Positions 3,667-34,573 of a DNA stretch of 64,000 nucleotides are shown piece by piece. The notes under the pieces are model-generated. The model searched no databases. It saw only the letters and a program-made list of their open reading frames with translations, and was not told where the DNA came from. Source of the DNA: Desulfobulbaceae bacterium (GTDB lineage Bacteria > Desulfobacterota > Desulfobulbia > Desulfobulbales > SURF-16); NCBI GenBank assembly GCA_020444175.1, contig JAHLLM010000031.1, positions 1-64,000 on the forward strand. The letters are read 5' to 3'. Numbering within the stretch: the first letter of the stretch is position 1; every line of letters starts with the position of its first letter. The position numbers and the translations under genes were made by a program.

Positions 3667-3727
3667 TGGGTGCCATGACACCCTTCAAAGAGCGACTTCT
3701 CCTAACTGAGAGTTGCGGGAGGTGAAA

Positions 3728-11424: not shown

Positions 11425-14197
<2,773 letters not shown>

Positions 14198-14242: not shown

Positions 14243-15583
14243 TTAATTTGACGCAAAACGGCGTTTGAAACTCAGAGACACGCTGCCGAACCAGCCGCCC
14301 CCAAGCTGTACGGACTCCATTCCCATCTGGGTGGTATGATTGAGATCCTCATACAGTGGAAGGCCTGCTGTCAGGCGAAGATTAAAATTCCCGCCAAGGG
14401 CTGTAAGAAACCTCCAGGAGGCAACACCGGTGAGCATACTTCTCGAACCTCCACTGTTGCCTACATCATCACCATCCAGCTCATTCCTGTCATAATGAAC
14501 CGTATCAGCCTCAACACCGACCATTACATCATAATTTGGCGTGTAATGCAGAGCGACCCCCAAACGGGCCTCATCGCCGAACTTGAAGTTGTCGCTATTT
14601 TCCAGTTTATGTGTATAGCCGGCCATGCTATGCAGCCAAAAATCCTTATAGCGATAGGTATAAAGCAGCCCTCCACCGAAGGTGAAATCCCCGGTGCCCA
14701 TCTGCAGTCCCGGCTTGGCAATATACTCCTCTTCAAAATCACCTGTTGGCAGGCTGACTTCAGCAAGCAGTGTTGTAAAATGATTATAATAAATGCTTTT
14801 CAGAAAATTGTAGCGCAGGGAAATCGAGACATCACTGAGGCCGCTGTTTTTGTCGGTAACTGTTCTGTTGCCGCCCATGGTGTACATTTCCATCTCTTTG
14901 TCCAGATATGATGCATTGGCATCCAGCGTCAACGTATCCGTGACTCCGTAGGTCCCCATGAGCATGGTGCCATCTGCTTTCATTTCTTTGGGGCCCATCA
15001 TCTGACCCGGTCGCTCTATGAAATCACCTGGTTCCACAGAATCAGAGCCGACCTTAACAGTGTCCATTTTCATTTGCATAACGCCAAGGCCAATACCAGA
15101 TGACCCTTTCGCGGGCAGCACGGCGGTCTTTATCCGAGCCGGCATGGTCATGGCTGTGGGAGAAATAGTCAAAAGGGCCTGGGAGAAGGTAACAAGCTCT
15201 CCACCATATGCATCCTTGAAATGCTGCGCCTCCGCGCGGTCCTGAAAGGCAATAATGCTGGGCAGCATATCAGGAATGATTTTACTTGAAAGCACATAAA
15301 TCGCCTCCTGAGCCTGCAGTGTCTTTTCAGACAGAAAATCTTTAACAAGAAGAGATTTAAAGGCATCCGGTCCTCCTTCATCCACCACTAAACGAAGCAA
15401 ACAGGCCAGACCGCAGGACTGAACGAGCTTACCATCATTATATTCCAGCTTCCCGGCTGTTTTCTGATACTCATCAATATACATGCCGCAAACCTGACAA
15501 GCCGGACGGTCCTCCTGCCCTGCTGCGGCAAACGCCGCAGGGATACAGAACAACATTAGAAAAACAACAATCATTTTTTTCAT
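14243..15583 (-). CDS. NosL-like copper domain fused to outer-membrane beta-barrel
   Basis: A 446-residue exported protein with two parts. After a signal peptide (about residues 1-22), residues 25-165 resemble NosL, the copper-binding accessory protein of nitrous oxide reductase, with the motif CQVCGMYID and a second cysteine pair in SCGLAC. From about residue 175 to the C-terminal Asn, alternating aromatic/hydrophobic strands (for example LGGGWFGSVSLSFKRRF at the end) indicate an outer-membrane barrel. NosL proteins are normally small lipoproteins without a barrel. ATG at 15583 is used because MKKMIVVF starts the signal peptide. It is the last gene of the copper-oxidase-like cluster, so copper handling for those proteins is a reasonable guess. 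Confidence 0.8.
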   Translation of the reverse strand: MKKMIVVFLMLFCIPAAFAAAGQEDRPACQVCGMYIDEYQKTAGKLEYNDGKLVQSCGLACLLRLVVDEGGPDAFKSLLVKDFLSEKTLQAQEAIYVLSSKIIPDMLPSIIAFQDRAEAQHFKDAYGGELVTFSQALLTISPTAMTMPARIKTAVLPAKGSSGIGLGVMQMKMDTVKVGSDSVEPGDFIERPGQMMGPKEMKADGTMLMGTYGVTDTLTLDANASYLDKEMEMYTMGGNRTVTDKNSGLSDVSISLRYNFLKSIYYNHFTTLLAEVSLPTGDFEEEYIAKPGLQMGTGDFTFGGGLLYTYRYKDFWLHSMAGYTHKLENSDNFKFGDEARLGVALHYTPNYDVMVGVEADTVHYDRNELDGDDVGNSGGSRSMLTGVASWRFLTALGGNFNLRLTAGLPLYEDLNHTTQMGMESVQLGGGWFGSVSLSFKRRFASN

Positions 15584-15845
15584 ACATTTTCTCCTCACAG
15601 TAAAGACTTGTTTAACTGAGTTTGAATAACTCAGAATAATAACCATTCAACTACTTGATAATCTTTCTCAACTATTTAATCACATTCAGCAGAAAATTAT
15701 AACATTTTTTTGCCGCAGCAATTTACTTCAGTCAAACAGAGAAGATAAAAAAAGTCTATGAGGAAATTTCAAGTCAGGAATGAGAGGGAAAAACCAGCGG
15801 AACACAACAAAAAATTCAAATATACATACTGGAAGGGAGAGGTGT

Positions 15846-17426
15846 TTAGGGAACAGGACTTGTAAAACAATCACTTCGCCCCATATCATCGAGAAGAAGT
15901 GACAGGTCAGAGCTGTCAACTGCGCCGTCATTGGTGAGGTCGGCCAGGCAAGGGGTTGTTTCCGAACAATCAAAACGACCGGTTTCAGCAGCAAATACGA
16001 AGACATCACTGCCATCAACATCACCGTCGACATCCAGGTCTGATATACAAAGATTGATTCCCGGGATAAGCGCCAGGGCTCCCGGCAGGCTGACAAAACC
16101 AGACCCGTAATCATTATCAGGGCCAGTTAGCCCCTGATCCCAGGCTGATTGCCGCACAATATTTTCAAGGTCTGTCACTGTCAATGTTGGCGCAGCGCTG
16201 AGCAGCAACGCCATTGCCCCTGCAACCTGAGGAGCGGCAAAGGAGGTTCCGGTCACGGAGGTATACGGATTGACGTTCGGAATGCCGTAAATCGTGGTCA
16301 GGTCAGCTGTTTTAATACTGACCCCCGGGGCGACGACATCAGGAAAAACTCCATCAGGATCACAGGGAGATGGTCCCCGGCTGCTGAAATCGGAAAGAGT
16401 ATCAGTAAAATCAGTTGCTCCCACGGCAAATGACTCTGAGTAATTGGCCGGACTGACACTGGTATAGGGCAGAGGCCCCTTGTTGCCGGCAGAAAAAACC
16501 ACTGCTATTTCAGCAGCCTTGAGCATTTGAATATCAGTCAGGAACTCTTGATAGCATTGGTTGAGCTGCTCAGGAAATCCCCAGGAATTATTAACAATGT
16601 CCGGGGAATCATCGGTAAGCGGATCGCCATCGGGATCAAGCAGCCACTGATAACCAAGATGAATGGCACTCAAAGATGCCTCTCCCTGGTCATTAAAAAT
16701 CTTAACGCCAATCCACTGTGCTCCGGGAGCGACACCTATGGCAGAGCCACCGGCATCGCCCCCCACCATGAGACCCATAACCTGCGTTCCATGGCCATCC
16801 GAGTCATGCGGGAGGGCATATTCATTATTCGGATCATACCAACTATTGCTGCCGCCCCGCCAGCTATTCATCAGATCAGGATGATCAAAGTCTACTCCAG
16901 TATCCATATTGGCAACCACGACCCCCTGCCCGGTGTAACCGAGATTCCATAAATCAGGGACGCCGATGGCGTCAATATTCCATTCTGGAAGAGAAGAACT
17001 GTTCATGGTTTGCGGGGAAAGAGTGACAACGGCATCGAGTTTGACCGAGGCAACTGCAGGATGATTCGCGAGTCTTTTAATGAGTCGCGGCTTGGCAGTA
17101 AATGCTATGGAGTTGACCAGCCAGAGCGAACGAAATTTTCTGCCCTGAAAAAGGCTTATTAAATTTTTCAGGGGCTTTTGTGATCTGTTTGCCTTTTCTC
17201 GCAGATCGGTGATCAGTTTTTTCTGACGAAGCCTTTTAGAAAGCTTTCTATATGCTTGAGGATTAACCTGATCGCGAAGAGTTACAATAACAGGTATTTC
17301 GTCGCTCTGACTCATGACATCAAGGCGACTCTGAAGCTCAGGGCGGATTTGTGCAGACAATGCGGCCTGCCCTGCAAAAAGGGCAAGAAACAGACAAATT
17401 ATAAATATTTTGACTTGTTTCAGCAT
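15846..17426 (-). CDS. subtilisin-like serine protease with C-terminal dockerin
   Basis: A 526-residue secreted peptidase of family S8. A signal peptide (1-25) is followed by an I9-type propeptide (about 28-135) and the catalytic domain with Asp175 (NMDTGVDFDHP), His212 (DGHGTQ) and Ser395 (GTSFAAP), so the triad is complete. Residues about 460-520 form a dockerin: two calcium-loop repeats (DLDVDGDVDGSD and DLTNDGAVDSSD), each followed by a helix ending in a Gly-Arg-Asp/Phe-Asp-Cys type sequence. Dockerins bind cohesins; related dockerins occur in two neighbouring proteins, which suggests they join the same assembly. Processing of those proteins is a possible role. Confidence 0.92.
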   Translation of the reverse strand: MLKQVKIFIICLFLALFAGQAALSAQIRPELQSRLDVMSQSDEIPVIVTLRDQVNPQAYRKLSKRLRQKKLITDLREKANRSQKPLKNLISLFQGRKFRSLWLVNSIAFTAKPRLIKRLANHPAVASVKLDAVVTLSPQTMNSSSLPEWNIDAIGVPDLWNLGYTGQGVVVANMDTGVDFDHPDLMNSWRGGSNSWYDPNNEYALPHDSDGHGTQVMGLMVGGDAGGSAIGVAPGAQWIGVKIFNDQGEASLSAIHLGYQWLLDPDGDPLTDDSPDIVNNSWGFPEQLNQCYQEFLTDIQMLKAAEIAVVFSAGNKGPLPYTSVSPANYSESFAVGATDFTDTLSDFSSRGPSPCDPDGVFPDVVAPGVSIKTADLTTIYGIPNVNPYTSVTGTSFAAPQVAGAMALLLSAAPTLTVTDLENIVRQSAWDQGLTGPDNDYGSGFVSLPGALALIPGINLCISDLDVDGDVDGSDVFVFAAETGRFDCSETTPCLADLTNDGAVDSSDLSLLLDDMGRSDCFTSPVP

Positions 17427-17482
17427 GTCTCTTCCTCTTACTCATATAATAACTCAGCCCTGCAGCAAAATTGACAAAAAAA

Positions 17483-17971
17483 CTACTCAACAACGAGGTC
17501 CTCTGCCTTGAACTCTCCCATAACCACTGTTACCTTGTTGCCTACTTTAACAAATCCGTTAGGATTCGAAAAAAGAGAAAAATAAATGCGTCCGGCATCG
17601 GGCTCCATGTCCGTTTGCCGGAGCGAACCTATTTTCGGGGTACTCGGTACTGCCAGCTTCAGTCCGCTGGCCTGATCCATGAGGTACGTTTTCAATTTCG
17701 GATCATGCATGATCTTCACGGCTTTTTTAGGGTCAGTCACTTTGTAGCGAAAATCAAGGATATGTCCGGCAGCGGAAAGCCTGAGGCTTTCCGGCCGGAT
17801 ACCCCATTCCTCTTCAAGGTGTGCATAGTTCTTTTCCGGCTTGGCTGTTTCCTGAGTAACGCTCTCAGTTTTGGAGGAACACCCCTGCAAAGCAAAGAAC
17901 CCTCCAAGGAAGCAGATCAGAAAGAAGAAATATCTGATTTTAATTTTATAAATACCATAAAGATCTTTCAT
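17483..17971 (-). CDS. lipoprotein of the oxidase cluster, unknown function
   Basis: A 162-residue lipoprotein: basic N-terminus, hydrophobic segment, and lipobox LQGC followed by SSK. The mature part contains FRYKVTDPKKA, LAVPSTPKIGSLRQ and YFSLFSNPNGFVKVGNKVTV, which look like a small beta-rich domain; I do not recognise a named family. ATG at 17971 is preferred over an in-frame ATG 33 bases upstream because AGAGGAAGTGGAG is directly in front. It lies 17 bases after the dockerin-bearing cupredoxin gene and 56 bases before the protease, so it is probably co-transcribed. Confidence 0.82.
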   Translation of the reverse strand: MKDLYGIYKIKIRYFFFLICFLGGFFALQGCSSKTESVTQETAKPEKNYAHLEEEWGIRPESLRLSAAGHILDFRYKVTDPKKAVKIMHDPKLKTYLMDQASGLKLAVPSTPKIGSLRQTDMEPDAGRIYFSLFSNPNGFVKVGNKVTVVMGEFKAEDLVVE

Positions 17972-17988
17972 CTCCACTTCCTCTTCTA

Positions 17989-19179
17989 TCATGGGGTAAG
18001 ACAATCCAACCTTCCAAAATCAACACGCAGAATGCCAAAATCCTGGAGATCAACGCTTCCGTCACCATTTATATCTGCGGAACACGGATTGTCAACAGTG
18101 CATATCTGCCCCCATTGTGAGCGCAGGATACCAAAATCCTGAAGATCAACCATCCCATCACCATCAATATCGCCGTTGCAGGCGTTAATAGTAACTCTGG
18201 TCTGCATGCCGCCGTCACTGTCCATGGCGTTTGTCAGATCAAGACTTCTGTCATAAATGCTGTAAATCCCCTGTAAAGGCGATGCCATTACAGCATCAAT
18301 AGTCTTGCCAGCCGTAAGAAGTACGGAATACTGTTCACGAGCATAGGGATACAGATTGCCATCTTCAGCAACAACGTCCATATTCGGCCCAACCAGTGTT
18401 GGGATATGGGTCTGCAGACCGGCACTCATAAAACGCAGAAGAACCGTTTCGCCTGGAACAGGTTTGTGATCATACAGAGGCATGGCATCGGGATACGGGG
18501 CTCCGTTTATCAAAAAATACCTGGGCTCATAGTTGATGGTGCTTGGATAATCAACTGTCCCATAGGTTCCGCCGACAACGGCCTCATGAAGCGCGGGATC
18601 AATTTCGCTGTGCAGAAGGACAGCATCATTGTCATAAGATACACCATCATATGCCATGCCTGCAGCAAAATCCTTTGTAACGGCACCATACAGGCCCATC
18701 TGAACCTGAACGGCCGGATGGGTACCACTCTGATATACGTAACTACCCGGTCTCATCGCGTTCCAGCTATAGGTCTCAATGCCTCCCGGAGCTGTTTCAT
18801 GAGTAAATGAACGAACCCTGCTTCTCCCAGTACTGTCTGTAAACATGACAGGAGACATGCCGGCTGTCTGCCCAGGGATCACAAGGGACATCGGTTCGGC
18901 AAGATCATTCCGCACATGAATATTCAACACGGAGTCGCCTGGGGCCACTGTAATCATGGGGCCTGGAGCTGACGCCATTTCCCCGCCGTCGGTTGACAGG
19001 TCAGCATCAGCATCTTCAGCAAAACCCCACATCGATACGCTCAAGCCGTCCGGCATGGTTGTGTTAAACTGTTTTGCAACCAAATAGACATCCGCTGCCT
19101 GACAGGTGCCGGCAATGGCAACAAAGCCAAGGGCACCCAAGAAACTCTTCAGTCCTAAAGGTATATAATTATTTTTCAT
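17989..19179 (-). CDS. cupredoxin/multicopper-oxidase-like protein without copper ligands, with dockerin
   Basis: A 396-residue exported protein, third of three tandem paralogues. Two cupredoxin-like domains are recognisable by alignment with its neighbours, but the copper positions are replaced: VIPGQ instead of HxHG, VYQSGTHPAVQVQMG instead of YHCH, and THIPTLVG instead of HPFHHHG. The C-terminal 63 residues are a dockerin with two DxDGDGxVDLQDFGILR-type repeats. It is therefore more likely a structural or docking subunit than an enzyme. ATG at 19179 is chosen because GGAGG lies eight bases ahead; an ATG six bases earlier is too close to it. Confidence 0.85.
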   Translation of the reverse strand: MKNNYIPLGLKSFLGALGFVAIAGTCQAADVYLVAKQFNTTMPDGLSVSMWGFAEDADADLSTDGGEMASAPGPMITVAPGDSVLNIHVRNDLAEPMSLVIPGQTAGMSPVMFTDSTGRSRVRSFTHETAPGGIETYSWNAMRPGSYVYQSGTHPAVQVQMGLYGAVTKDFAAGMAYDGVSYDNDAVLLHSEIDPALHEAVVGGTYGTVDYPSTINYEPRYFLINGAPYPDAMPLYDHKPVPGETVLLRFMSAGLQTHIPTLVGPNMDVVAEDGNLYPYAREQYSVLLTAGKTIDAVMASPLQGIYSIYDRSLDLTNAMDSDGGMQTRVTINACNGDIDGDGMVDLQDFGILRSQWGQICTVDNPCSADINGDGSVDLQDFGILRVDFGRLDCLTP

Positions 19180-19198
19180 AGTCATTTCCTCCCGCCCT

Positions 19199-20503
19199 TT
19201 AAGGAATAATAATATGCGGTGGTTCAACAACCATCATGGTCATCATTCCGCCGGGAAAGATGTCAAAGTTTGTCAGTTCTTTCTCGGTGTGGGAATGCCA
19301 CATGAAGAAATAGCCGCCATTAATGTTCAGTCCGCCTTCACCGGGAGGAAGTGCTTCTGCGCTGCCCATATAAGGACTACCGCCCCACCAGCCTCCAAAC
19401 CCCAGATCCTGTTTTTCCGGTAAAACAACCGGCAGAGGCTTACCGTGGTCCGGACAATATTCATGGGTCACATCATCAAAATCATCGCCATTGCCATCAA
19501 CACAATCATGTTCATAGCCTACACCGGTTCCGTACATATCCCAGCCCAGCTTCTCTCCTGTCCATTCAAAGATCGCGTCAACCGTCTCTTCAGGAATGGC
19601 CTGGATGGTAAACTCGGAGGTTGCCAGATCAGGATCAACACCGTTCGTACTGAGGAGTCTTCCATCCTTGGCAATGACAGTCGAGTTGTTGCCATGATGG
19701 TGGAAAGGATGCAGGTCCCTTCCTGCACTGACAATGCGCATCAGGAGTTTGCCGCCGGGATTCATCCTTGGCAGACAGTTGTATGGCTGATGCGGCAGAA
19801 GGGGTGTATAGGCAGGAGCCAGGGTATCCGGTGCCGCCCTGCCGTTTATCATCCAGATAACAGGTGCTCGCTTTGCATTATCAACTTCATCCTGCTGGCC
19901 GAACTCTACCAGTTCATGGATAATCGGATCCATATCGGTGAGCAGAAAGAGATACTCATAGTCATAGGCCGTGGAGCTTGAACCGTATGCCGTCCTGTTG
20001 AGATCAGTATAGCCCGCCGGTCTTACAACAATTGCCCCGACAAGGCCCATTTCTATCTGCAGGTCCGGCTGCGTGCCGCTGTGATAGACGTAGGTTCCGG
20101 GATGGCTTGCCGTAAAGGTATAGGTTACTGTGTCAGCCGGAGAATTTGACTCTCTGGTCAACAGCCCCTGGCTGCCTCCGGAAGCCGCAACATCCTGCCC
20201 CGGGAAAAGAATAGAGACAGCATTGCCAAGGGGAAGTTCATTTGTGAGGGTAATGGTTATCACATCATTCTGATCGACAATAAGGGTTGGCCCGGGATAT
20301 TGCATGACATTGTTTCCGTTAGCATATCCCCACATCAGAATACTGTTGCCGTCCGGCGTACTGATGTGCCCTTCTTTTGCCGTAAAATGAAAAGTGGTGC
20401 CGGTAACACCGTCAATGATTGCCTGTGCCTGGGCAGCAAACAACATCAGGAGCATGATAACCAGCGGAATCAGAATACCTTGTTTTCTATTTATTCTATT
20501 CAT
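19199..20503 (-). CDS. multicopper-oxidase-like subunit carrying HPFHHHG and HSH motifs
   Basis: A 434-residue exported protein with two cupredoxin-like domains. The first has lost its ligands (ILFPGQ near residue 98; VYHSGTQ near 139). The second has two copper motifs of multicopper oxidases: HPFHHHG at 265-271 and WHSHTEKE at 402-409. Neither the HxHG nor the HCH motif is present, so this chain alone cannot complete a trinuclear site. The missing pair is found in the upstream neighbour. The start at 20503 has GAGGAGAG in front, and the signal peptide runs to about AQAQA. A calcium-loop-like stretch (DCVDGNGDDFDD) lies at about 333-344. Confidence 0.88.
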   Translation of the reverse strand: MNRINRKQGILIPLVIMLLMLFAAQAQAIIDGVTGTTFHFTAKEGHISTPDGNSILMWGYANGNNVMQYPGPTLIVDQNDVITITLTNELPLGNAVSILFPGQDVAASGGSQGLLTRESNSPADTVTYTFTASHPGTYVYHSGTQPDLQIEMGLVGAIVVRPAGYTDLNRTAYGSSSTAYDYEYLFLLTDMDPIIHELVEFGQQDEVDNAKRAPVIWMINGRAAPDTLAPAYTPLLPHQPYNCLPRMNPGGKLLMRIVSAGRDLHPFHHHGNNSTVIAKDGRLLSTNGVDPDLATSEFTIQAIPEETVDAIFEWTGEKLGWDMYGTGVGYEHDCVDGNGDDFDDVTHEYCPDHGKPLPVVLPEKQDLGFGGWWGGSPYMGSAEALPPGEGGLNINGGYFFMWHSHTEKELTNFDIFPGGMMTMMVVEPPHIIIP

Positions 20504-20518
20504 GGAATCTCTCCTCAT

Positions 20519-21787
20519 TTAGTTAATATGGATTTCGGTCATCATGCCCCCGAAATCCTCTTTGTCATTAGAAAGATAATTCAGGTTGGTCGTATAAAGA
20601 AAATACGTCCCCGGCGCAATTCCGGTGGTATCGAGAATGACATCTACCGCTTCTCCACCGCCCAGGTTCACTGAATTTGTGTTGTAGTATAGGTTCTCGC
20701 CAAGGAGCGGTCCTGCACCATCGGGATCAGTGCTTCTCAGCAGCTTTGTATCCTTGCCCACAACGGTCATCGGGATGCTGGGGCTGGCCAGGGTATAAAA
20801 GCGCGTCACGTTCAGGTTGGAAATACGAAGCAGAATTTTATCTCCAGCGGTTCCCTCGATCAGGGAATCTTCGAACTGCGACACCTTGCCGCCGTTTTCA
20901 ACAGGCGCCGGCAGGGGATTATTCTCGATGGTATCGGGGTATCCTCTGCCGTTCAGCATTGCATAGTTGTCATTCATATTGGCAAAAGGCAAAGGCTGCA
21001 CGGAAATACTGGCATCATGAAAAGCGCCATCAAAAGAACCTATCTGCAGAGGGTAATCGCTGTCAAAATAGGTTGATCCGTCTCCGTCATTGTAGGCATA
21101 CTTGAAACCTGTTTGATGAATAAAACCGTTCAACGATGTGCCGTCAGCAAGCAGATTCTGGTCCGGCTCCACGTAAAGATTGCCTAGCATGCCCATCTGC
21201 ATATGCTCTGCAGCCTCAACATGACAGTGATACATGAATGTGCCCGGCTCAACGACATTATAATAATAAGTCAGGGTCGAACCCATTTTAATGGAGATTG
21301 AGGCATCCGGCACCCCGTCAAAAACAGAGGAGGCATTGGGAAATCCGTGCCAGTGGACGGTATGCGGATCAAATAGATCGGGCCGCATCATCATACCCAC
21401 ATTGGTCAGGCTCAGATAAAACTCATCTCCTTGCCGTAAAAGAATAGGTGGCGCAGGAAATGCCGCTGCCAGTATCCCTTCGGACAATACCTGATCATCA
21501 GGCAGGCCGGTTACATTTGAAAAACCGAAAATATACGTTTCCTTGCCATCAGCCATTGTTACAAAACCATCTCCACCGGTCAGATGCATACACACCTGAT
21601 TGGACCCGAGAGGGTTACTTATCTCACCGTCGTCGGCACGCAACATGCCATCCCCGTTATGGTCGCCATCAACGCCAGGGTCATATCCGGGACACTGGAA
21701 CGAAACAGCGCCCCAGGAGGCAGATGCTCCCAGAAAAAGAAAAGACGCAGTGAGAAGTGTCAAAAGGCGGTATCTCTTTGTTTTCAT
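20519..21787 (-). CDS. multicopper-oxidase-like subunit carrying HWHG and HCH motifs
   Basis: A 422-residue exported protein with a signal peptide ending near SWGA. A calcium-loop-like sequence (DGDHNGDGMLRADDGE) lies at about 40-55. The first cupredoxin domain has HWHG at 145-148 and the type-1/type-3 signature HCHVEAAEHMQMGM at 187-200, including Cys188, His195 and methionines. The second domain lacks ligands. Proteins with these motifs oxidise metals or phenols, or act as laccases, using one type-1 copper and a trinuclear cluster. The cluster here would need the second-domain motifs of the next gene, whose start follows 15 bases after this stop. Confidence 0.9.
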   Translation of the reverse strand: MKTKRYRLLTLLTASFLFLGASASWGAVSFQCPGYDPGVDGDHNGDGMLRADDGEISNPLGSNQVCMHLTGGDGFVTMADGKETYIFGFSNVTGLPDDQVLSEGILAAAFPAPPILLRQGDEFYLSLTNVGMMMRPDLFDPHTVHWHGFPNASSVFDGVPDASISIKMGSTLTYYYNVVEPGTFMYHCHVEAAEHMQMGMLGNLYVEPDQNLLADGTSLNGFIHQTGFKYAYNDGDGSTYFDSDYPLQIGSFDGAFHDASISVQPLPFANMNDNYAMLNGRGYPDTIENNPLPAPVENGGKVSQFEDSLIEGTAGDKILLRISNLNVTRFYTLASPSIPMTVVGKDTKLLRSTDPDGAGPLLGENLYYNTNSVNLGGGEAVDVILDTTGIAPGTYFLYTTNLNYLSNDKEDFGGMMTEIHIN

Positions 21788-21830
21788 ATCTTTATTCCTC
21801 TCACCTCTTGTATTTGCAGGTAATGTGGAG

Positions 21831-21863
21831 CCATCCTCCGCAAGAATCGGCGGATGGCTCTTT
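21831..21863. terminator. hairpin between the giant protein gene and the oxidase genes
   Basis: GAGCCATCC and GGATGGCTC form a strong stem, extended by partial pairing of CCG and CGG, in the 84-base gap after the 1768-residue protein gene. There is no clear T-run on the minus strand. It may be a partial terminator or a stabilising hairpin that sets different expression levels within the cluster. Confidence 0.5.
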
Positions 21864-21871
21864 GGGTCAAA

Positions 21872-24800
21872 TTAATTCAAACAGTCAGTGCGCCCGAATT
21901 CGGAACGAAGGATGCCGAAGTCACTCAGGTCGACGCTGTTGTCACCATTCAAGTCCGCACTGCACGGTGCCGCCTCGCTACAGACTGTGCCGAACTGCGC
22001 TCGCAGGATGCCGAAATCTTGGAGATCTACAGCACCATCGTTGTTAATGTCCGCTACGCATGTATTCTGCGGATCAGTTGCCTGAACTTCATCAGCACCA
22101 ACATCCGGGGCAACACCGCTGGGTCTTGCCTCACTGTCAACATCGGCAGACAAGGCGGCTGCACTGCTTAAAATCACACTGTCTCCCGCGTCAATTGCAG
22201 GTGAATTGTTGACAATATGGTAATCACCAAACAAGGCTCCAGAGACTGGATTCCACAGAGTAAGCGGGCCGAACCTGACATCAATGAAGTTTCCACCTTC
22301 GTCCAGAGCAGGTGCTGCCTGAATACCCGTGGTGACCTCAGGCAATACCAGCCATCCCCGGTCTCCATTGACATACTCACTGACAAAGAGAGGATCAAAC
22401 ATGTAATTGCTTGCATCATACCCTGTTACATCAGTCAGTATGGAGTACATCGGGTCAAGCATTGCCGCGATGCCGACAACTGCCAGATCATTATAAACCG
22501 GGGCCTGGCCTGCACTGATATCCGGAACAAGTCCGAAACCGGTATCGGAAAGGAGCCAGTAAAATGACCGATTGTGCCAGATTGTGTTGTTAAAAAGGAT
22601 CGGATTTGAATAATTCGCCATAAACGGCAGTCCTACACCGAGTCCGATTGCATCAGCAAGCTGCGTACTGTGCGGCCTTGAAACCACACCGGCCGGCTGC
22701 GGGTTGGACTGGGTCGGCACACCTGGAGTAAAAGCTTCTCCGGCGGTTGCCGTACTGTCGTTATTGGCAATAGTGTTATGAATAATCTTGACAGAAGCAG
22801 CGTCCTGCAGGGAAATACCGCCACCGGCCAGTCCTGCCCCGTTGTTGGCAATAATGTTATTTAAGATATCAACACTATGCCATGCCTCGGTGTTGTCTGG
22901 AGCATTTGCAACATCCTGACCGTTCACACTGGAGAGACGAATACCACCGCCATCTCCGGCTCCGGCAAGGTTGCCCTGGATCAGATTTGAAATAATCTGT
23001 ACAGAACCACTGCCATCGCTCAGAGCCGCACCGCCTAACGGAGCAAGTCCTGAAATCAGAACACCGCCGCCATTGACCGTCTGGCCCTGGTTGAATGACT
23101 GGTTGAAGATAATGGTATTGTCCTTAATAAGGCCATTGCTGCTCAGGCCACGATGAGCAATACCAGCTCCTTCGCCAAGGGTAAAATTACCGCAGATCAG
23201 GTTATCGGTTACAGAGTAATTATCCGAACCGGTTGCCAGGGTAATACCTCCGCCGGCGTTGCCGTCACTCATTCCTGCGTTTCTGGTTATTTCATTGTTA
23301 TGAATATTCAGGAAATCATTACCGCTGTCTACGTATGAAGCATCAAGGGCAAGGGTCTGGTGGCCGGATCTGATAGCGCCGCCGAAAACACCCTGGTTGC
23401 CGAAGATATTATTATTGCTGATCTCCAGATACTGCGCTCGTCCGTTGACCATAACCGCGCCGCCGAAATCTGCGCCGGTAATGGTAAAGCCGTCGATTCG
23501 CGCTCTCTGATTCTCGTTAAATTCACCCGCGCGGGCAAGTACCAGAACGCCTGCCGCCTCTTCAGTGAAGAGAGTATCCGGTTCCGGTCCTGCAAAACCA
23601 ATTTCCTGTCCTGGCAAGAGGTAACTTGCGTCACCGCCAACCGCCGGATCAACCAGACTCTGCAGAAGTTCTCGCCAGGCAACCAATGCCTCGGCAGGAT
23701 CTTTCACAGCGTTGATTGTTGTTGATCCCGGACCCCAACCCTGAAGCTTAACCGGTTTCCACATGATAACCGACTCTTCATAGGTTCCCGGAGGAATAAG
23801 GATAAGGCTACCGGGAGCCGCGCCGTTTACAGCGGCCTGGATAGAGCCGCCGGGAGCCACGTGAACAGGCGGCAGGGCTTCATTCACAGAAAGGGTCACA
23901 CCAACAAGGCTTGATTTATTGTTGTCGTTTCTTGTGACAACAAGCTCACCGGTTGTCGTTCCGGCAGCAACCCTGCCCATAATGACATCAGGTGACCAGG
24001 CATCGACAATCAAATCAGTGCCGCCAATGCTGACAGTCCCTGCATTGCCAAATCCGTAATCCCTTGTAATGTTGACCGGGCTTGCCGGATCATTTGGGTT
24101 ATAGGCAGGATTCGGAATCTCTACAGCACTTCCCGCAGAGACGATGGTAATTGAATAGGTGCCGTTTGCTGCAGGCACATAAGGACCACCATCAGGACCG
24201 CTGACGGAATAAATCTTCGGAGTGCCGTTTTCGAGTTCACAGTCAAGTGAATCCTGACCTGGGCCGGCAAAAGCTGCCACAGGAACAACCGGCGTATCCA
24301 GATAGGTGGTTGAGCCCGGCATGAAATCGAAAGTATAGCAAAACTGACTGTATTTTCGATTAAAGAAGGGATCGATGATCGTCTGGCCAGGGTTGGCCGG
24401 ATCAGGAATCGGTCCAGGGCTGTTCATGCACAGAGTCAGCATGTTCGGAGACATACCGCTCGGATTAGGTATATTTGTTGTAAAGGTTGAAGGAACAAGG
24501 GCATTATAGTTTCCCCACTGATCAGAGTAAATTCGATGAATTTCCCGACCTGTCCAGTCCCGAATGGAAATCGGCAGGAAAGGAAGAGCATATTTTTCGC
24601 CGAAAGTTATAGCTGTCGGATCAAACTCATTACTGGCATCATCGAGGATAAAGCCTATGGCATGCCCGGCTATAGGAACTTCGGTAAACATAAAAAAATC
24701 TACCGCTGCATTCTTGCCGTCAGTAAGCGAGATCTGTTTTCTATCGCACATTTTAAGAGTTTGCCCGGCCAATGGCGCAGCCACTCCGGGGAACAAAGCC

Positions 24801-27178
24801 AGCTCGTCCGGGACGACATATTCTTCACCCACACAAACCGGGGGAAGCAGCTCCGGATTTGCGACATACTCTTCACCAAAATCGACCGCCTTGTCCTGGG
24901 ATTTAAATGTCTCATAACCAACAGGGGGCACGGACTCAACGATATACATGGCTTCCGGAAGACCTTCCACCTCAGTATTTCCAGACTCAATGCCGCCGGG
25001 GATGTATGAGGCAAATGCATAGCCACCGTCAAACACACCGGGTCGGACCTGATTCCAGTTCCTCAAGCCATCGTAACACTTGGCATCCATGTAGAAGGTA
25101 TCAGTCGGATCACCGGGGCAGCCGGCAGGCTTGCTGTCATCCCAGCTGTCGGTGGTGGTGGTCTGAATGGCATCCGCGCGGGTGATAACGCCATCGTTGT
25201 TGATGTCATCAATCACACCGTCCGAACCGTCAAATACCCCGTTGCCGTTCCAGTCCACATCCTCGGCTCCAGGGAAATTACCCATAGGGCCATGATCATG
25301 GTCACCGTCTGCATACAGATTAACTTCAACCCGGGGAATACCAGGTTCCCATGGCTCAGCAGCAGACAGCTCAGGATCATCTTCTGCACGTGTAATGTTA
25401 TAAAAAACAATACCTGAGATACCACCGTTCTCGCCGGGGCCGTAGGCTGTCTTTCCCCATTCAATTCTACTTGTCTGCCCGAGAAAACCTTGGAAAGCCT
25501 GGGTCAGAACGGGTCCTGTTTCAGTACGGAAAGGCAAAGGCTCCGTAGCCTGTACCCCTGTCCTGGGATCGATTAATGGTTCGCCTGTCGCCAGATCGAC
25601 AACCGGCTGCAGTTGAGGGTTGAGCTGTGCGTCAAAGGTCCAGGGATCATTGGGGTCAATGGCTCCACCGGCATCAACAATAATGGTGGCTCCAGTTGCC
25701 TTGAAGCGGGCAAAATCAATTTCAGCCACCAGCCAGTTGAAAAACGGAAAAACCTGGTCATAGGGAGCATTCCCTGTACTGTCTGTGGGAAACGACTGAT
25801 AAACAGTGCCGTCTCTCCAACGGATATTTGACCCTACTTCCAAAAGACCTACTTCATCACCTGCGACCAAGTCGTCGCAGGCCTCGGTAACGCATTCACG
25901 GAATCCGTTTTCATTGGCATCATAAAAGGCCATCTGCTCCAATCGTGCAAACCACTGAAAAACCGGCACTTCCCCAAGATCACAGGACACGCCGGCATTA
26001 CAGGTACCGTCTGCATTAACGATGACATCGTAGAAGGCAAATATCTGATCCAGGTTATCATCCCATACTACAAGCTGGTATGGGCCCGGAGGGACATCAG
26101 GAATGGTAAATGTTCCGTCATCATTTGCTCTCTCGGCATAAACTCCAACACCGATACCGGTTGCCATGTCATTGAGACCGATCCATGCCGTGGTATGGCC
26201 AAGTGGCCCGCCGTTAAAAAAGAACTGCTGAGTTGCATCGGAAGGCCTGGCCAGATGATTATTAACCACCTGCCCGCTGATTGAAGTCCCACCTGGAGCA
26301 GAAATGACATTCTGTGGCTGTATAAAGCCAATCGCAACATGGGGACCTGGTGTACCGAATTCACGGAAAAATGATGGCTCATTAGCTTTTGGCCAGGCAT
26401 CAATAACTTTTGTCCCTTCAATAGTGGCTGTCTGCACCCAGCTCTGTCCTGCCGGAGGTACAGCCATAATACCGTATTTGCCTGGAGCAAGATTTTTTAT
26501 CAAAGCCCTGCCCTCAGCATCGGTAAGAATGACGCCATTTCCCATGACGAGAACGTTACCTGCGGCATCGTATGTCGTGCCAAGGGGATTCCCGAAAACA
26601 TCCGTCATCTGCTGACCAGCTGAAATACCATAGCGGCCACCGGCGTCTTCTAACTGAATGGTAAACCCTTCTAGCCCGCTTTCCTCAGGAGTGTCAAAGG
26701 CATTGTTGATCGGCTGGTTATCCTGATAGACAACAATGCTGATCTGGGCCGTCGGCAGTGGCAGGGTATTGACAACCACTGTAACGTCTGCCTGTCCTGG
26801 TTTCACCTGAGCGCCGCCAAGTGCATAACCTGAATCCGGCAGCACGGTTACAAAATACCGTTTCTGCAGATCAGGAACCGCTATGTCCGCACTTGAGGAT
26901 AGGGAAGCTCCATTTGCCACAACCGGCATATAGCTCTGGTGGAGATTTTGCCCGAGAGGTTCAGGACTGCTCACACCAGGAGTCACGGCATAAGTGGCAT
27001 CCTCTTCAACAAGCCATCGAAACCCAGAAACTCCGACTCCATTACTGTCAACGACATTCACATTGAATGCCCAGGCCTGTGTGCCGGGAATCCCCATACA
27101 CAGTAATGCCAGAAATGACAGGAACACAGTAAACCAGTCTCTGGTTGTGTCCTTATATATATGCTGTTTTCTGTTCAT
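21872..27178 (-). CDS. giant secreted beta-helix protein with Ig-like/SdrD-B-like repeats and dockerin
   Basis: A 1768-residue exported protein. A long signal peptide ends near TQAWA. The first 1100 residues contain several carboxypeptidase-regulatory/SdrD-B-like beta-sandwich domains (for example LTDAEGRALIKNLAPGKYGI and FTIPDVPPGPYQLVVWDD) and a calcium-loop segment (DINNDGVITRADA). About residues 1120-1680 form a right-handed parallel beta-helix with repeated NNxIxxN turns. The last 65 residues are a dockerin with two DLQDFGILR/DLSDFGILR repeats, nearly identical to that of the third oxidase-like protein. ATG at 27178 is chosen because GGAGGG lies seven bases upstream. It is most likely a surface scaffold or adhesin; a polysaccharide-binding or lyase function of the helix cannot be excluded. 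Confidence 0.9.
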   Translation of the reverse strand: MNRKQHIYKDTTRDWFTVFLSFLALLCMGIPGTQAWAFNVNVVDSNGVGVSGFRWLVEEDATYAVTPGVSSPEPLGQNLHQSYMPVVANGASLSSSADIAVPDLQKRYFVTVLPDSGYALGGAQVKPGQADVTVVVNTLPLPTAQISIVVYQDNQPINNAFDTPEESGLEGFTIQLEDAGGRYGISAGQQMTDVFGNPLGTTYDAAGNVLVMGNGVILTDAEGRALIKNLAPGKYGIMAVPPAGQSWVQTATIEGTKVIDAWPKANEPSFFREFGTPGPHVAIGFIQPQNVISAPGGTSISGQVVNNHLARPSDATQQFFFNGGPLGHTTAWIGLNDMATGIGVGVYAERANDDGTFTIPDVPPGPYQLVVWDDNLDQIFAFYDVIVNADGTCNAGVSCDLGEVPVFQWFARLEQMAFYDANENGFRECVTEACDDLVAGDEVGLLEVGSNIRWRDGTVYQSFPTDSTGNAPYDQVFPFFNWLVAEIDFARFKATGATIIVDAGGAIDPNDPWTFDAQLNPQLQPVVDLATGEPLIDPRTGVQATEPLPFRTETGPVLTQAFQGFLGQTSRIEWGKTAYGPGENGGISGIVFYNITRAEDDPELSAAEPWEPGIPRVEVNLYADGDHDHGPMGNFPGAEDVDWNGNGVFDGSDGVIDDINNDGVITRADAIQTTTTDSWDDSKPAGCPGDPTDTFYMDAKCYDGLRNWNQVRPGVFDGGYAFASYIPGGIESGNTEVEGLPEAMYIVESVPPVGYETFKSQDKAVDFGEEYVANPELLPPVCVGEEYVVPDELALFPGVAAPLAGQTLKMCDRKQISLTDGKNAAVDFFMFTEVPIAGHAIGFILDDASNEFDPTAITFGEKYALPFLPISIRDWTGREIHRIYSDQWGNYNALVPSTFTTNIPNPSGMSPNMLTLCMNSPGPIPDPANPGQTIIDPFFNRKYSQFCYTFDFMPGSTTYLDTPVVPVAAFAGPGQDSLDCELENGTPKIYSVSGPDGGPYVPAANGTYSITIVSAGSAVEIPNPAYNPNDPASPVNITRDYGFGNAGTVSIGGTDLIVDAWSPDVIMGRVAAGTTTGELVVTRNDNNKSSLVGVTLSVNEALPPVHVAPGGSIQAAVNGAAPGSLILIPPGTYEESVIMWKPVKLQGWGPGSTTINAVKDPAEALVAWRELLQSLVDPAVGGDASYLLPGQEIGFAGPEPDTLFTEEAAGVLVLARAGEFNENQRARIDGFTITGADFGGAVMVNGRAQYLEISNNNIFGNQGVFGGAIRSGHQTLALDASYVDSGNDFLNIHNNEITRNAGMSDGNAGGGITLATGSDNYSVTDNLICGNFTLGEGAGIAHRGLSSNGLIKDNTIIFNQSFNQGQTVNGGGVLISGLAPLGGAALSDGSGSVQIISNLIQGNLAGAGDGGGIRLSSVNGQDVANAPDNTEAWHSVDILNNIIANNGAGLAGGGISLQDAASVKIIHNTIANNDSTATAGEAFTPGVPTQSNPQPAGVVSRPHSTQLADAIGLGVGLPFMANYSNPILFNNTIWHNRSFYWLLSDTGFGLVPDISAGQAPVYNDLAVVGIAAMLDPMYSILTDVTGYDASNYMFDPLFVSEYVNGDRGWLVLPEVTTGIQAAPALDEGGNFIDVRFGPLTLWNPVSGALFGDYHIVNNSPAIDAGDSVILSSAAALSADVDSEARPSGVAPDVGADEVQATDPQNTCVADINNDGAVDLQDFGILRAQFGTVCSEAAPCSADLNGDNSVDLSDFGILRSEFGRTDCLN

Positions 27179-27302
27179 TTGTATCCCTCCATTGCCGGCA
27201 TCTGTGAAAGCATCATTCTGTAACGAGGACGTTCCCTCTGTTGATGTTTTCATGTGCCAACCCCTTATTTTCTTTCGTCAGCATGCCCTTAACTGTATTT
27301 CG

Positions 27303-27923
27303 TTATAAAGCACTTTTCTTTCTTCGGGAACGCAAGCCAAGAAGACTGGTCAAACCTGCGCCCAACAGCCAGACTGCACCTGGGAGAGGAACAGCTGCCA
27401 CACTCACCTGCGCCCCCTGAAAATCGATCAAGGGATCAAAAATAAATAAATCATCCGCCAGATAATCCACTGCCGCGGCATCGTAATCCAGCAGAGCCAA
27501 GTCAAACAGACCCACATCGCTGCTTGTTAGATTAATTGATCCAAGCAAGAGTGGGTTTACGGCATCAAGGGCGCCGAAAGAAAGACCCTGCAAACTGAGG
27601 CTGCCGGGGGAATCGTTAAGTACAATTGGAATCCAGGCTGGAGCCATTGAGGAGGAAATCGAGGAAATTTGTGGCGAAGCCCCAACATAGTTAAGCTCCA
27701 CACCAAAACCAATGAGCCCTCCATGGGCTCCACCCAGTGCATCAACAAAATCCCGGGCATAAATGTCTGCAGTGAAAGAATTCCCAAGATTAACGGACCA
27801 AACAGTTTCAGCTGTAGAAGCATCACCGTCAAAGTCCAGATAGACAAGCGGTGCAGCACGAGCAATTTGACCAAAAATCAACAAAAAGCATGCAGCACCG
27901 AGTAAAAAAATCGATTTTTTCAT
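27303..27923 (-). CDS. PEP-CTERM-type protein with cohesin-like body
   Basis: A 206-residue exported protein. After the signal peptide (ending ARAAP), the body of about 150 residues has the pattern of a cohesin-type beta-sandwich: an early stretch around NSFTADIYARD, the core LIGFGVELNYVG and a late strand GSINLTSSDVGLFDLALL. The C-terminus (VPLPGAVWLLGAGL, then a basic RSRRKK tail) is a PEP-CTERM-type sorting signal, which in this family directs anchoring by an exosortase. The cohesin assignment is by pattern only. It fits the context: the next gene and two others in the cluster end in dockerins. ATG at 27923 is preceded by AAGGAGA. Confidence 0.78.
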   Translation of the reverse strand: MKKSIFLLGAACFLLIFGQIARAAPLVYLDFDGDASTAETVWSVNLGNSFTADIYARDFVDALGGAHGGLIGFGVELNYVGASPQISSISSSMAPAWIPIVLNDSPGSLSLQGLSFGALDAVNPLLLGSINLTSSDVGLFDLALLDYDAAAVDYLADDLFIFDPLIDFQGAQVSVAAVPLPGAVWLLGAGLTSLLGLRSRRKKSAL

Positions 27924-27964
27924 GGCGACTCTCCTTTTCATTTTGCGTTAGTTTTTTTCCAGCT

Positions 27965-28171
27965 CTAATTTATTTCTTTATCATCAATGCTCAGTTTCCT
28001 GGCTTCAAGCCGCAACTTATAAGCATTATCAAGAACAATACCCAGAAACCTGAGACTTCTTTCGTCATCAGCGGTTAAGGCATAACTTTGAGCCAGCTTG
28101 ACGAGCATCTCAGATAGGTTGATAAGCTGTCGGATGTTATTGGCATTTATAGTTTCAGTTCTTTTTTCCAA
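27965..28171 (-). CDS. small helical protein, first frame after the riboswitch
   Basis: A 68-residue, highly charged, probably all-helical protein without signal peptide or membrane segment. I do not recognise it. The only start available is TTG at 28171, because a TAA lies 15 bases upstream in frame; GTGGGG before it may serve as a weak ribosome-binding site. It begins about 30 bases after the riboswitch terminator and ends 41 bases before the cohesin-like gene, so its position supports a real gene, but the evidence is modest. Confidence 0.45.
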   Translation of the reverse strand: MEKRTETINANNIRQLINLSEMLVKLAQSYALTADDERSLRFLGIVLDNAYKLRLEARKLSIDDKEIN

Positions 28172-28201
28172 ACCAGCTGCCCCACTTTAATGATTGCCCA
28201 T

Positions 28202-28235
28202 AAAAAAAGCCGGATTGCACCTTTTGCAACCCGGC
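28202..28235 (-). terminator. intrinsic terminator of riboswitch 2
   Basis: On the minus strand GCCGGGTTGC pairs with GCAATCCGGC (one G-T pair) around a seven-base loop, followed by seven T. The 5' arm is also the last conserved block of the GEMM aptamer, so ligand binding and terminator formation should exclude each other. This predicts that ligand turns expression on. Confidence 0.85.
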
Positions 28236-28295
28236 CGTCTCTTTCGAGATCCGTTGGCTTTCCGTCTCCACCTCGCGATGAATTTGGCTTTAAGG
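28226..28295 (-). ncRNA. GEMM-class (cyclic dinucleotide) riboswitch 2
   Basis: The minus strand shows the same elements as the copy at 3601: AAAGCCAAA, a stem TTCATC-GCGA-GGTGGA with a GNRA loop, GACGGAAAGCC, then ACGGATCTC-GAAA-GAGACGG and the closing GCCGGGTTGC. The tetraloop, the purine-rich joint and the GACGGAAAGCC core are the conserved parts of the GEMM-I family, which senses c-di-GMP or, in some variants, 3',3'-cGAMP. It directly precedes the exported-protein cluster that runs to 14243, and its last block overlaps an intrinsic terminator. Confidence 0.85.
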
Positions 28296-28681
28296 ATTAA
28301 ACATACTGCGGTTCAAATAATACAGAGTGGTATTTCACAATGCGTGCCAGTAATTTTTCTTTCTTTCATTACGCACACAACATATTGATATCGTGGGAAT
28401 TTAAAAAAATCACGCCTTCATATACATAACCAGCAGCTTGGGTAATGGATCCTGCAAACCAGGACATACAATATAAAGGACAAGGACCTTTCATAAAGAG
28501 CCAAAGTCTTAAAACAGCAGAACTTTTCCTCTGGAGAAATATTGATAAAAAGGGGTGGGATTCAGAAAACGATGACTGTCTCAGTCAGATGAGACAATGA
28601 GACACTGCGAGACAACTCTGAAACACTTCTGATACAATAAATCAGCAGCCAATATATGCTCAAAAACTAGCGCGATTTATT
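28296..28681. other. intergenic region upstream of the riboswitch
   Basis: About 385 bases between the riboswitch and the end of the sigma-54 activator gene. No gene, repeat or clear hairpin was found. The promoter of the minus-strand cluster should be here. A TGGCAC at about 28345 (minus) lacks the matching TTGC element. Confidence 0.5.
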
Positions 28682-30085
28682 TCATTTTAAAGGTAGATTT
28701 TTTTGCAAAAAACGATACAGGGTTGCCCGGCCGACACCAAGCAACTTTGCAGCAGCGGTTTTGTTGCCATCTGTTTTTTCAAGAGCTGACATTACTGCAA
28801 CCTGATCAAGTTTTTTCCCAGATGTATTCTTGTGAAGAAATGTGGCAAGGGCAGAGTTGTTGCTGACGGGGTAATTGCTCTGGGTTTGAATGTAATGGGG
28901 CAAATGATAAGGTTCAATTGTCTCTGTTTCGCATTTCATTATTGAAAACTGAATGACATTCTGCAGCTCCCTGACATTCCCCGGCCAATCGTGCATTACC
29001 AGCAGCTCAAGTGATTCGGGAGACAATATTTTTTTCGTTTTTCCGAAGTTGTGTGCTGTCTGTTCAAGAAAATGTTCCGCAAGAAGAGGAATATCAGTCT
29101 CGCGCTCCTGCAGGGACGGGACATTAATGGGAACAACGCAAAGCCTGTAATAGAGATCGAGACGAAATCGCCCGGCGGCAACCTCATCCTCCAGCTTCCT
29201 GTTTGTGGCGCTGATTACCCGGGCATCAACCTTAAGAGTCTTGGTGCCGCCGATTCTCTCAAATGTTCCTTCCTGCAGAACCCTGAGGATTTTAGCCTGT
29301 ATTGAGAAATCAAGTTCTCCGATTTCATCCAAAAAAATGGTTCCTTCGTTGGCCAGTTCGAATCTGCCTTTTTTACTGTGAACTGCGCCGGTAAAAGCGC
29401 CTTTCTCGTGGCCGAACAGCTCACTCTCCAAAAGGCCATGGGGAAGAGCCCCGCAATTGACTGTAACAAAAGGCATATCGCGACGCGGACCGGCATCATG
29501 TATAGCGTGGGCCACAAGCTCTTTTCCGGTACCGCTTGCCCCTTGAACCAAAACAGGCAGATCAACACGTGAAGTTTCATAAATAAGATCATAAATCTCT
29601 TCAAGGGATCCGTGATTTCCTATTATTTTCTTGGCGAATGCATCCTTTTCAAGCTTGTTGATAACGTCAAGCTTTGAGATATTATCAATAATAACGACGG
29701 CGTAATTCCCATCTTTGTAAAAAAACGGGGCAGCGCTGACAAAGAGTTCCACCAAACGAGGCTTGCCATTGATCAACAGCTGAAAATTCCCCCTTGCCCG
29801 ATACTTCCGGTTGTGTTCAAGGGACTCTATTGCTGCACGCCGGGCGGCACATTTTTCACAGTAAACAGTGGAACCGCAACCTGTAGCAGACTGAATTGCA
29901 TTAATACAGTTCAGCATGTCTCCTGCGCATTTGCCCACAAGATCGTCACTTTCCTGGCCAACGATCTTTTCCACAACATTGTTTATCTGCCTGATTTTCC
30001 TATCCTTATCCAGGACAAATACACCACAGGGAATTTCTGCCAAAAGTGTTTTGATAAATTCATTATTTAATTCATAAAATTCCAA
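28682..30085 (-). CDS. sigma-54-dependent activator with PAS sensor
   Basis: A 467-residue enhancer-binding protein. Residues about 1-130 form a PAS domain with a cysteine cluster (CGSTVYCEKC), suggesting a redox, heme or metal input. The AAA+ domain has Walker A (GASGTGKE), the sigma-54-contacting GAFTGA loop, Walker B (GTIFLDEIGEL) and arginine fingers. The C-terminus is a Fis-type helix-turn-helix (KTAAAKLLGVGRATLYRFL). There is no receiver domain, so it is not a classical response regulator. It lies between the minus-strand oxidase cluster and the divergent ABC/Sco operon and may regulate either; no convincing sigma-54 promoter was found by eye. Confidence 0.93.
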   Translation of the reverse strand: MEFYELNNEFIKTLLAEIPCGVFVLDKDRKIRQINNVVEKIVGQESDDLVGKCAGDMLNCINAIQSATGCGSTVYCEKCAARRAAIESLEHNRKYRARGNFQLLINGKPRLVELFVSAAPFFYKDGNYAVVIIDNISKLDVINKLEKDAFAKKIIGNHGSLEEIYDLIYETSRVDLPVLVQGASGTGKELVAHAIHDAGPRRDMPFVTVNCGALPHGLLESELFGHEKGAFTGAVHSKKGRFELANEGTIFLDEIGELDFSIQAKILRVLQEGTFERIGGTKTLKVDARVISATNRKLEDEVAAGRFRLDLYYRLCVVPINVPSLQERETDIPLLAEHFLEQTAHNFGKTKKILSPESLELLVMHDWPGNVRELQNVIQFSIMKCETETIEPYHLPHYIQTQSNYPVSNNSALATFLHKNTSGKKLDQVAVMSALEKTDGNKTAAAKLLGVGRATLYRFLQKNLPLK

Positions 30086-32095: not shown

Positions 32096-32096
32096 T

Positions 32097-34561: not shown

Positions 34562-34573
34562 CAGGTCGTGACT

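Follow-up and report, generated by a model that had tools for sequence, protein, structure and literature searches.

A putative cohesin-dockerin surface tether for a divided multicopper oxidase in a Desulfobulbaceae bacterium

Gene content of the operon

The 64,000-nucleotide stretch analyzed here (positions 1 to 64,000 of contig JAHLLM010000031.1, assembly GCA_020444175.1), hereafter called the window, belongs to a Desulfobulbaceae bacterium and carries on its minus strand, at 14243-27941, an operon for a cohesin-like protein, dockerin-bearing proteins and subunits of a multicopper oxidase. In the order of transcription, the genes are P8, P7, P6, P5, P4, P3, P2 and P1. The gaps between them are small, with ~50 bases between P8 and P7, ~85 between P7 and P6 and none between P6 and P5, and P5 overlaps P4, as P4 does P3. 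The genes, their domains and the elements at the head of the operon are as follows.

27303..27941 (-), P8, cohesin-PEP-CTERM anchor protein, first gene of the operon
27390..27854 (-), cohesin domain of P8, by profile against the PDB and by AlphaFold model
27321..27395 (-), PEP-CTERM-type sorting tail of P8, read from the sequence, with a PF07589 score below the cutoff
21872..27253 (-), P7, large exported protein with Ig/SpaA/fn3-like domains, a beta-helix and a C-terminal dockerin
21905..22054 (-), dockerin of P7 (PF00404)
20519..21787 (-), P6, two-domain multicopper oxidase subunit with a predicted type 1 site and half of a trinuclear site
19199..20518 (-), P5, two-domain oxidase subunit with the predicted other half of the trinuclear site (Pfam Cu-oxidase_3 and Cu-oxidase_2)
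17989..19230 (-), P4, degenerate two-domain oxidase subunit without copper ligands, with a C-terminal dockerin
18028..18174 (-), dockerin of P4 (PF00404)
17483..18004 (-), P3, lipoprotein of a family conserved with the cluster (lipobox LQGC read from the sequence; position and similarity)
15846..17426 (-), P2, S8 (subtilisin-type) protease with a diverged C-terminal dockerin
15894..16043 (-), dockerin-like end of P2 (PF00404 below cutoff; leave-one-out profile)
14243..15646 (-), P1, NosL copper-binding domain fused to an outer-membrane-barrel-like domain (PF05573, PF13557)
28222..28298 (-), aptamer of a GEMM-I class (cyclic diguanylate-I, c-di-GMP-I) riboswitch at the head of the operon (Rfam RF01051)
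28208..28236 (-), intrinsic terminator that shares the 3' end of the aptamer as its 5' arm (stem and T run)

P7 is 1793 residues long when counted from the first ATG, and P3 matches no Pfam family. The gene content is as the original prediction had described it: Pfam and the sequence bear out the lipoprotein, the NosL-barrel fusion and the oxidase subunits, and no glycoside hydrolase is found in the cluster at 14243-27941.

The cohesin of P8, the dockerins and their predicted pairing

P8 consists of a signal peptide, a single cohesin domain and a PEP-CTERM tail, and its body had previously been called a cohesin by pattern. The Pfam cohesin model (PF00963) is silent on P8, matches nothing in the whole genome of this bacterium at an E-value of 0.001 and is also silent on the relatives of P8, barring one sub-threshold match to a relative. 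Among the kin of P8 are the orthologue from a family relative (50%) and, in the same genome, a paralogue (42%); more distant relatives resemble ordinary cohesins. Profiles were built from the bodies of this family without signal peptide and tail and searched against 177,635 PDB sequences. With six bodies, all nine matches are cellulosomal cohesins (best, 1.8e-5), and with ten bodies (profile A5) the top 13 of the 15 matches are cohesins (best, 9.8e-8). P8 is still recovered (1.2e-4, with the search space set to 5000) by a profile made from three distant relatives only, leaving out P8 and its two nearest relatives. When the family was compared profile to profile with cohesins that had been collected locally, the match was weak, giving a probability of 42% with six sequences (≤0.3% for 40 shuffles) and 0.4% with only P8 and its two nearest relatives. 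The AlphaFold model of the body alone has a predicted local distance difference test score (pLDDT) of 73.8. Foldseek places only cohesins among its top 25 matches to this model (E from 1.2e-5, probability 1.00), and the top 28 rows of VIA-align are likewise all cohesins (Z 12.4 to 9.8), the best of which is 2vo8 with a Z of 12.4 and a root-mean-square deviation of 3.0 over 127 residues. An earlier model of P8 that included the signal peptide and the tail (pLDDT of 61) resembled viral jelly-rolls as well as cohesins. Judged by profile and modeled structure, the body of P8 is confirmed as a predicted cohesin with a nine-strand jelly-roll fold. The pattern-based call has thus held, as cohesins top both searches.

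The tail motif of P8, VPLPGAVWLLGAGL..RSRRKK, is plain in the sequence, and the protein ends in a C-terminal Pro-hydrophobic-basic tail. The tail scores below the cutoffs, at 15.5 bits with the Pfam PEP-CTERM model (cutoff of 20.7 bits) and 13.4 bits with the NCBIfam VPLPA-CTERM model, and the tail of the P8 orthologue reaches 24.7 bits with Pfam, above the cutoff. The same genome has 17 matches to P8, mostly through the tail.

The dockerins of the exported proteins P4 (30.5 bits) and P7 (23.3 bits) exceed the PF00404 cutoff of 22.9 bits and have two EF-hand-like calcium repeats, while the end of P2, a third exported protein, scores 16.9 bits, below the cutoff, and 65 bits with a profile made without P2. 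In the window, the P4 and P7 dockerins are 68% identical to each other and the P2 dockerin is 42-45% identical to both, so the earlier description of three closely related dockerins fits P4 and P7 and overstates the case for P2. Between the window and the related genome G006, the bodies of P4 and P7 are 70% and 77% identical, respectively, and that of P8 is 48% identical, whereas the dockerins of P4 and P7 are only 42% and 60% identical. Within one genome, the identity between the P4 and P7 dockerins is 68% (window) or 61% (G006). Consequently, the dockerins and the anchor appear to evolve faster than the enzymes and jointly in each locus, as is expected if the dockerins bind one socket. An early idea that P7, P4 and P2 always share one C-terminal module was rejected by the locus counts: strong sharing of the module is found in 10 of 30 loci for P4 and P2, 8 of 49 for P7 and P4 and 4 of 26 for P7 and P2. 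Elsewhere in the genome, a 12-heme cytochrome (C72, L147 6571-8586) carries a dockerin at its N terminus and, after it, a MopE-like copper-binding motif, and no cohesin adjoins it. A GH17-like glycoside hydrolase (C50, L193 8904-10532) has a dockerin-like region in its N-terminal part, and at least one hydrolase with a dockerin-like domain is therefore present in the genome, outside the cluster.

P8-type cohesins for the count of gene adjacency were collected without reference to dockerins, and a dockerin gene counted as adjacent when it lay on the same strand and no more than 250 bases away. A dockerin gene adjoins 19 of 29 cohesin-profile PEP-CTERM genes, compared with 2 of 33 other PEP-CTERM genes (Fisher p of 6e-7); some of the 29 are closely related to each other, one of the 2 adjoins the same dockerin as a cohesin does, and many comparison proteins were seen with just 1.5 kilobases of flank, such that a dockerin that ends a long downstream gene may escape. 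A second pair is found in the genome of the window at C80, where the P8 paralogue is directly followed by a five-heme cytochrome that ends in a dockerin. Three family relatives have as the partner a four-heme protein with MtrC/F-like or cytochrome c7 matches (MtrC/F-like in two cases), which was assigned by Pfam in L184 and L187 and by four CxxCH motifs and a near-identical end in L185. Other partners of the cohesins are proteases, phosphatases and unknown proteins. Small proteins that contain both a cohesin and a dockerin also adjoin a cohesin-PEP-CTERM gene in two cases (L241 3252-4052 and L242 9329-10081), where adaptor and anchor could possibly form a two-step scaffold.

Among the 69 related oxidase loci that came from a genome scan, dockerin-type ends occur on cluster proteins in six: L051 (which is G006), L052, L064, L066, L106 and L110. 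PEP-CTERM proteins are encoded in five of the 69, and four of these five are dockerin loci (hypergeometric probability of ~9e-5 by hand calculation, with L064 and L066 being two copies in one metagenome-assembled genome). The in-cluster PEP-CTERM proteins of L064 and L066, which belong to a Gammaproteobacterium, are matched by the cohesin profile at 7.5e-5 and 3.3e-4, respectively (search space, 5000); the Gammaproteobacterial operon copy carries dockerins on P7, P4 and P2 together with its own in-cluster PEP-CTERM cohesin. The in-cluster PEP-CTERM protein of L106 was also considered as a cohesin, for which the cohesin profile gives no support. Because of the gene adjacency in relatives, the Gammaproteobacterial parallel and the P4 and P7 dockerins that are more alike than they are to their own orthologues, the prediction that P8 and the dockerins of the operon bind as a cognate pair is strongly supported.

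The predicted divided oxidase and its riboswitch

The order P7-P6-P5-P4 is kept in most of the related loci, often with P3 and P2, and the hosts of this core include Desulfobacterota, Gammaproteobacteria, Nitrospira, Acidobacteria, Planctomycetes, Verrucomicrobia, Myxococcus and others. P7 is fused to P6 in L073, L081, L083, L096, L101 and L104 and to P4 in L084, L086, L092 and L093, and these fusions suggest that P7 may contact the oxidase subunits.

Invariant residues of P6 are H142, H145, H147, H187, C188, H189, H195 and M200 (52 sequences) and those of P5 are H270, H273, H275, H358, H408 and H410 (63 sequences), while P4 has no invariant histidine or cysteine. The best PDB match of P6 is 3g5w, an oxidase of Nitrosomonas europaea (1.1e-21), to which it aligns through HTxHWHG and YHCHV..EH. 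We take H142, C188, H195 and M200 of P6 to be the type 1 copper ligands, and the eight trinuclear histidines are presumably 145, 147, 187 and 189 of P6 and 273, 275, 408 and 410 of P5. The type 1 ligands (His, Cys, His and Met) and the eight trinuclear histidines are complete only when P6 and P5 are combined. We infer from these sequences that a single active site would lie at the P6-P5 interface and that P4 would be a copper-free third subunit that bears the tether. The arrangement resembles that of two-domain oxidases whose first domain holds the type 1 copper (3g5w and 2zwn). Unlike in these oxidases, the histidines of the second domain are lost from P6 and present in P5, and P4 has none.

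Two further genes of the window lie on the plus strand.

33962..34561 (+), SCO1/SenC copper chaperone, conserved with the cluster (PF02630)
34568..36265 (+), MofC-like protein with one CxxCH heme motif and a periplasmic-binding domain (PF13458 at 28.7 bits, short of the cutoff of 31.7)

SCO1 was found in 18 and a MofC-like gene in 13 of the related loci searched, and the window has both at 33962-36265. Sideroxydans lithotrophicus ES-1 is described as having three tandem genes for extracellular multicopper oxidases together with mofC-like and SCO1 (copper-chaperone) genes (PMC5566968, Figure 4C). By that description, its cluster has the composition of the core found here, and a metagenome-assembled genome of Sideroxydans is among the related loci (L109). 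The parts of the account that deal with this cluster mention no cohesin, dockerin, PEP-CTERM anchor, divided copper site or riboswitch (PMC5566968). OmpB of Geobacter and MofA of Leptothrix, as presented in the same parts, are similar in being multicopper oxidases of the outer surface with MofC-like and, in Geobacter, SCO1 neighbors, and different in being single large chains rather than three separate two-domain subunits (PMC5566968).

The MofC/SCO1 context makes an extracellular metal ion the best guess for the substrate, and the oxidase would probably draw its electrons from outside the cell, for example from Fe(II), Mn(II) or Cu(I). An oxidase that serves mainly in copper detoxification or homeostasis, unrelated to electron exchange with metals or partners, is what the NosL and SCO1 neighbors and weak matches to the CopA and CueO models would suggest. 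We consider this unlikely, as no Cu-export ATPase or CopB-type partner is found among the neighbors examined, the same anchor family serves multiheme cytochromes, and the conserved partners are SCO1 and a MofC-like heme protein, as in clusters described as candidates for extracellular electron transfer (PMC5566968, in the parts cited above).

The aptamer at the head of the operon scores 51.6 bits with RF01051, against a gathering score of 35, and lies on the operon strand ~280 bases before P8; in the relative L152, a GEMM-I riboswitch is found at the same place (12702-12782, 59 bits). The terminator has a 12-pair stem followed by a T run, and the minimum free energy fold is the terminator form. 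Given that the 3' end of the aptamer is also the 5' arm of the terminator, an ON switch that works by antitermination is likely. The base that we take as the equivalent of position 20 is G, which presumably fits c-di-GMP better than cyclic GMP-AMP (cGAMP). In Geobacter, GEMM-I riboswitches govern extracellular cytochrome genes, and the ligand is thought to favor the antiterminator (PMC6456294). The layout in the window is like that of the Geobacter GEMM-Ib (cGAMP) riboswitches, in which a GEMM-I aptamer and a terminator lie upstream of extracellular redox genes (PMC6456294, PMC8835794); the ligand of the latter is cGAMP, whereas the base noted above would favor c-di-GMP for the aptamer of the window. 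A search of 14 other oxidase loci, among them the Gammaproteobacterial ones with dockerins, found no riboswitch, and the idea that it is a general feature of the oxidase clusters was rejected for this reason. A second GEMM-I riboswitch of the window (3592-3668, plus strand, 52.9 bits) precedes the gene of an exported protein of 200 residues (3713-4315) that belongs to no known family.

The proposed surface tether, its alternatives and known systems

We regard it as probable, with some reserve, that this operon makes an extracellular multicopper oxidase that is fastened to the cell surface by a cohesin-dockerin bond. P8 would be exported and retained at the surface by its PEP-CTERM tail with its one cohesin facing outward, and the calcium-binding dockerins of P7, P4 and possibly P2 would plug into it singly. 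P6, P5 and P4, each a two-domain cupredoxin subunit, may assemble into a heteromeric ring, to which P6 would give the type 1 copper and half of the trinuclear site and P5 the other half, while P4, having lost its copper, would act as the tethering subunit that brings P6 and P5 along. Copper would be delivered by the SCO1 and NosL proteins. The cyclic-dinucleotide riboswitch would permit transcription when its signal is bound, such that cells may make this coat when attached or in a biofilm. Because P8 has one cohesin and the genome has single-cohesin proteins only, a one-to-one tether is a better fit than a scaffold, and we conclude that the predicted system is a monovalent surface tether and not a cellulosome-like scaffold. 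The original prediction of a cohesin-dockerin copper oxidase complex is accordingly retained in part: its pairing is supported by the gene adjacency and the Gammaproteobacterial parallel, and its cellulosome-like assembly goes too far for a single cohesin.

Several observations weigh against this tether. One cohesin is set against three dockerins in the operon, which raises an issue of stoichiometry. The dockerin of the protease P2 is diverged, and in the relative L152 it has decayed to about one repeat. By profile, 10 of the 29 cohesin-PEP-CTERM genes have no adjoining dockerin. Most relatives of the oxidase core lack dockerins, which means that the catalytic core does not include tethering; the dockerin tether would be one of several ways to attach the same oxidase. 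Finally, no exosortase was found in the genome of the window (G000) with PF09721, TIGR04152, TIGR02602, the exosortase of a relative or PF11984, nor was an EpsI-like partner, which leaves the anchoring step without an enzyme. The match at C4 in the exosortase search (E of 0.29) was rejected as a credible exosortase. An exosortase is identified by TIGR02602 in six of the seven related genomes searched (G006, G020, G029, G007, G194 and G103), and G006, G020 and G029 have both exosortase and EpsI. The relative G017 is like G000 in having PEP-CTERM proteins and no recognizable exosortase or EpsI domain. The assembly of G000 consists of 90 contigs and is rated 100% complete, and the missing exosortase possibly lies in an assembly gap, or the tail is processed otherwise.

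If the dockerins were not binders of P8 and were instead calcium-stabilized tags at the C terminus that serve secretion, self-association or binding to another cohesin, the adjacency would reflect operon history. In other lineages, the same proteins do bear different C-terminal modules instead of dockerins, maybe as sorting or adhesion tags, and the dockerin genes at C71, C72 and C62 of the same genome have no adjoining cohesin. The adjacency of cohesin-PEP-CTERM and dockerin genes in many relatives, their independent co-occurrence in Gammaproteobacteria and the similarity of the dockerins within a locus argue otherwise, and we think such tags quite improbable. A true multivalent complex, in which P8 or a further scaffoldin gathers several dockerin proteins in the manner of a cellulosome, would suit the three dockerin proteins of one operon and the cohesin-plus-dockerin adaptors of the two distant relatives L241 and L242, and is very improbable here, as P7, P4 and P2 would compete for the single site of P8 and no multi-cohesin scaffoldin was found in the genome, which has no Pfam cohesin and in which A5 finds only three single-cohesin family proteins.

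The monovalent tether shares with the clostridial cellulosome the cohesin fold, the dockerin sequence and the pairing of dockerin-bearing enzymes with a surface-anchored cohesin. It differs in the single cohesin, the Gram-negative PEP-CTERM tail, the redox enzymes and the lack of a cellulose-binding module and a scaffoldin. Non-cellulosomal cohesin-dockerin systems have been described in anaerobic methanotrophic (ANME) archaea and syntrophic sulfate reducers (PMC9012536, PMC5244752, PMC10553843). As in these systems, cohesins and dockerins are here part of extracellular proteins of an organism with predicted extracellular electron transfer, and surface attachment or adhesion was proposed there in general terms. 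The proteins of the ANME archaea and sulfate reducers include adhesins, ABC binding proteins, S-layer fusions and some multi-cohesin proteins, whereas a single PEP-CTERM cohesin is here joined to a copper oxidase operon. A literature search found no account that joins PEP-CTERM, cohesin and dockerin, though subscription papers were mostly outside this search and an earlier description is possible. What appears to be new is that the known non-cellulosomal pairing is applied to extracellular redox enzymes, the oxidase core itself being known from the description of Sideroxydans.

Non-cellulosomal cohesins and dockerins are spread across life with a mostly unknown role, for which a surface socket for redox enzymes would be a concrete example, with cognate pairs named that adjoin each other in the genome. 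The system also suggests a route of Gram-negative display through PEP-CTERM tails, a multicopper oxidase, found across many phyla, whose copper site would be split over two proteins, and a link to cyclic-dinucleotide signaling, which controls genes of extracellular respiration in Geobacter. More broadly, and with slightly more doubt than confidence, we propose that PEP-CTERM single cohesins serve Desulfobacterota and at least one Gammaproteobacterium as surface sockets of general use. In the relatives of the window, interchangeable redox enzymes such as the divided multicopper oxidase and MtrC-like cytochromes would plug into them, under cyclic-dinucleotide control in the operon described here, forming a modular display for extracellular electron exchange.

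Upstream of the operon lies one further regulatory gene.

28682..30085 (-), PAS and sigma-54 activator regulator, with a presumed link to the operon

An orthologue of this regulator is found in the same position in L152. A sigma-54 promoter ahead of the operon was considered and rejected, as matches in the window are not above chance. The plus-strand genes at 30546-33805 encode an FtsX-type permease, an ABC ATPase, a membrane protein that belongs to no known family and a further, small protein; this group adjoins NosL genes in several related clusters and is perhaps a copper-maturation transporter. At 46456-48177 on the plus strand, ~20 kilobases from the cluster, the window also encodes a multiheme c-type cytochrome with class III and c7 matches.

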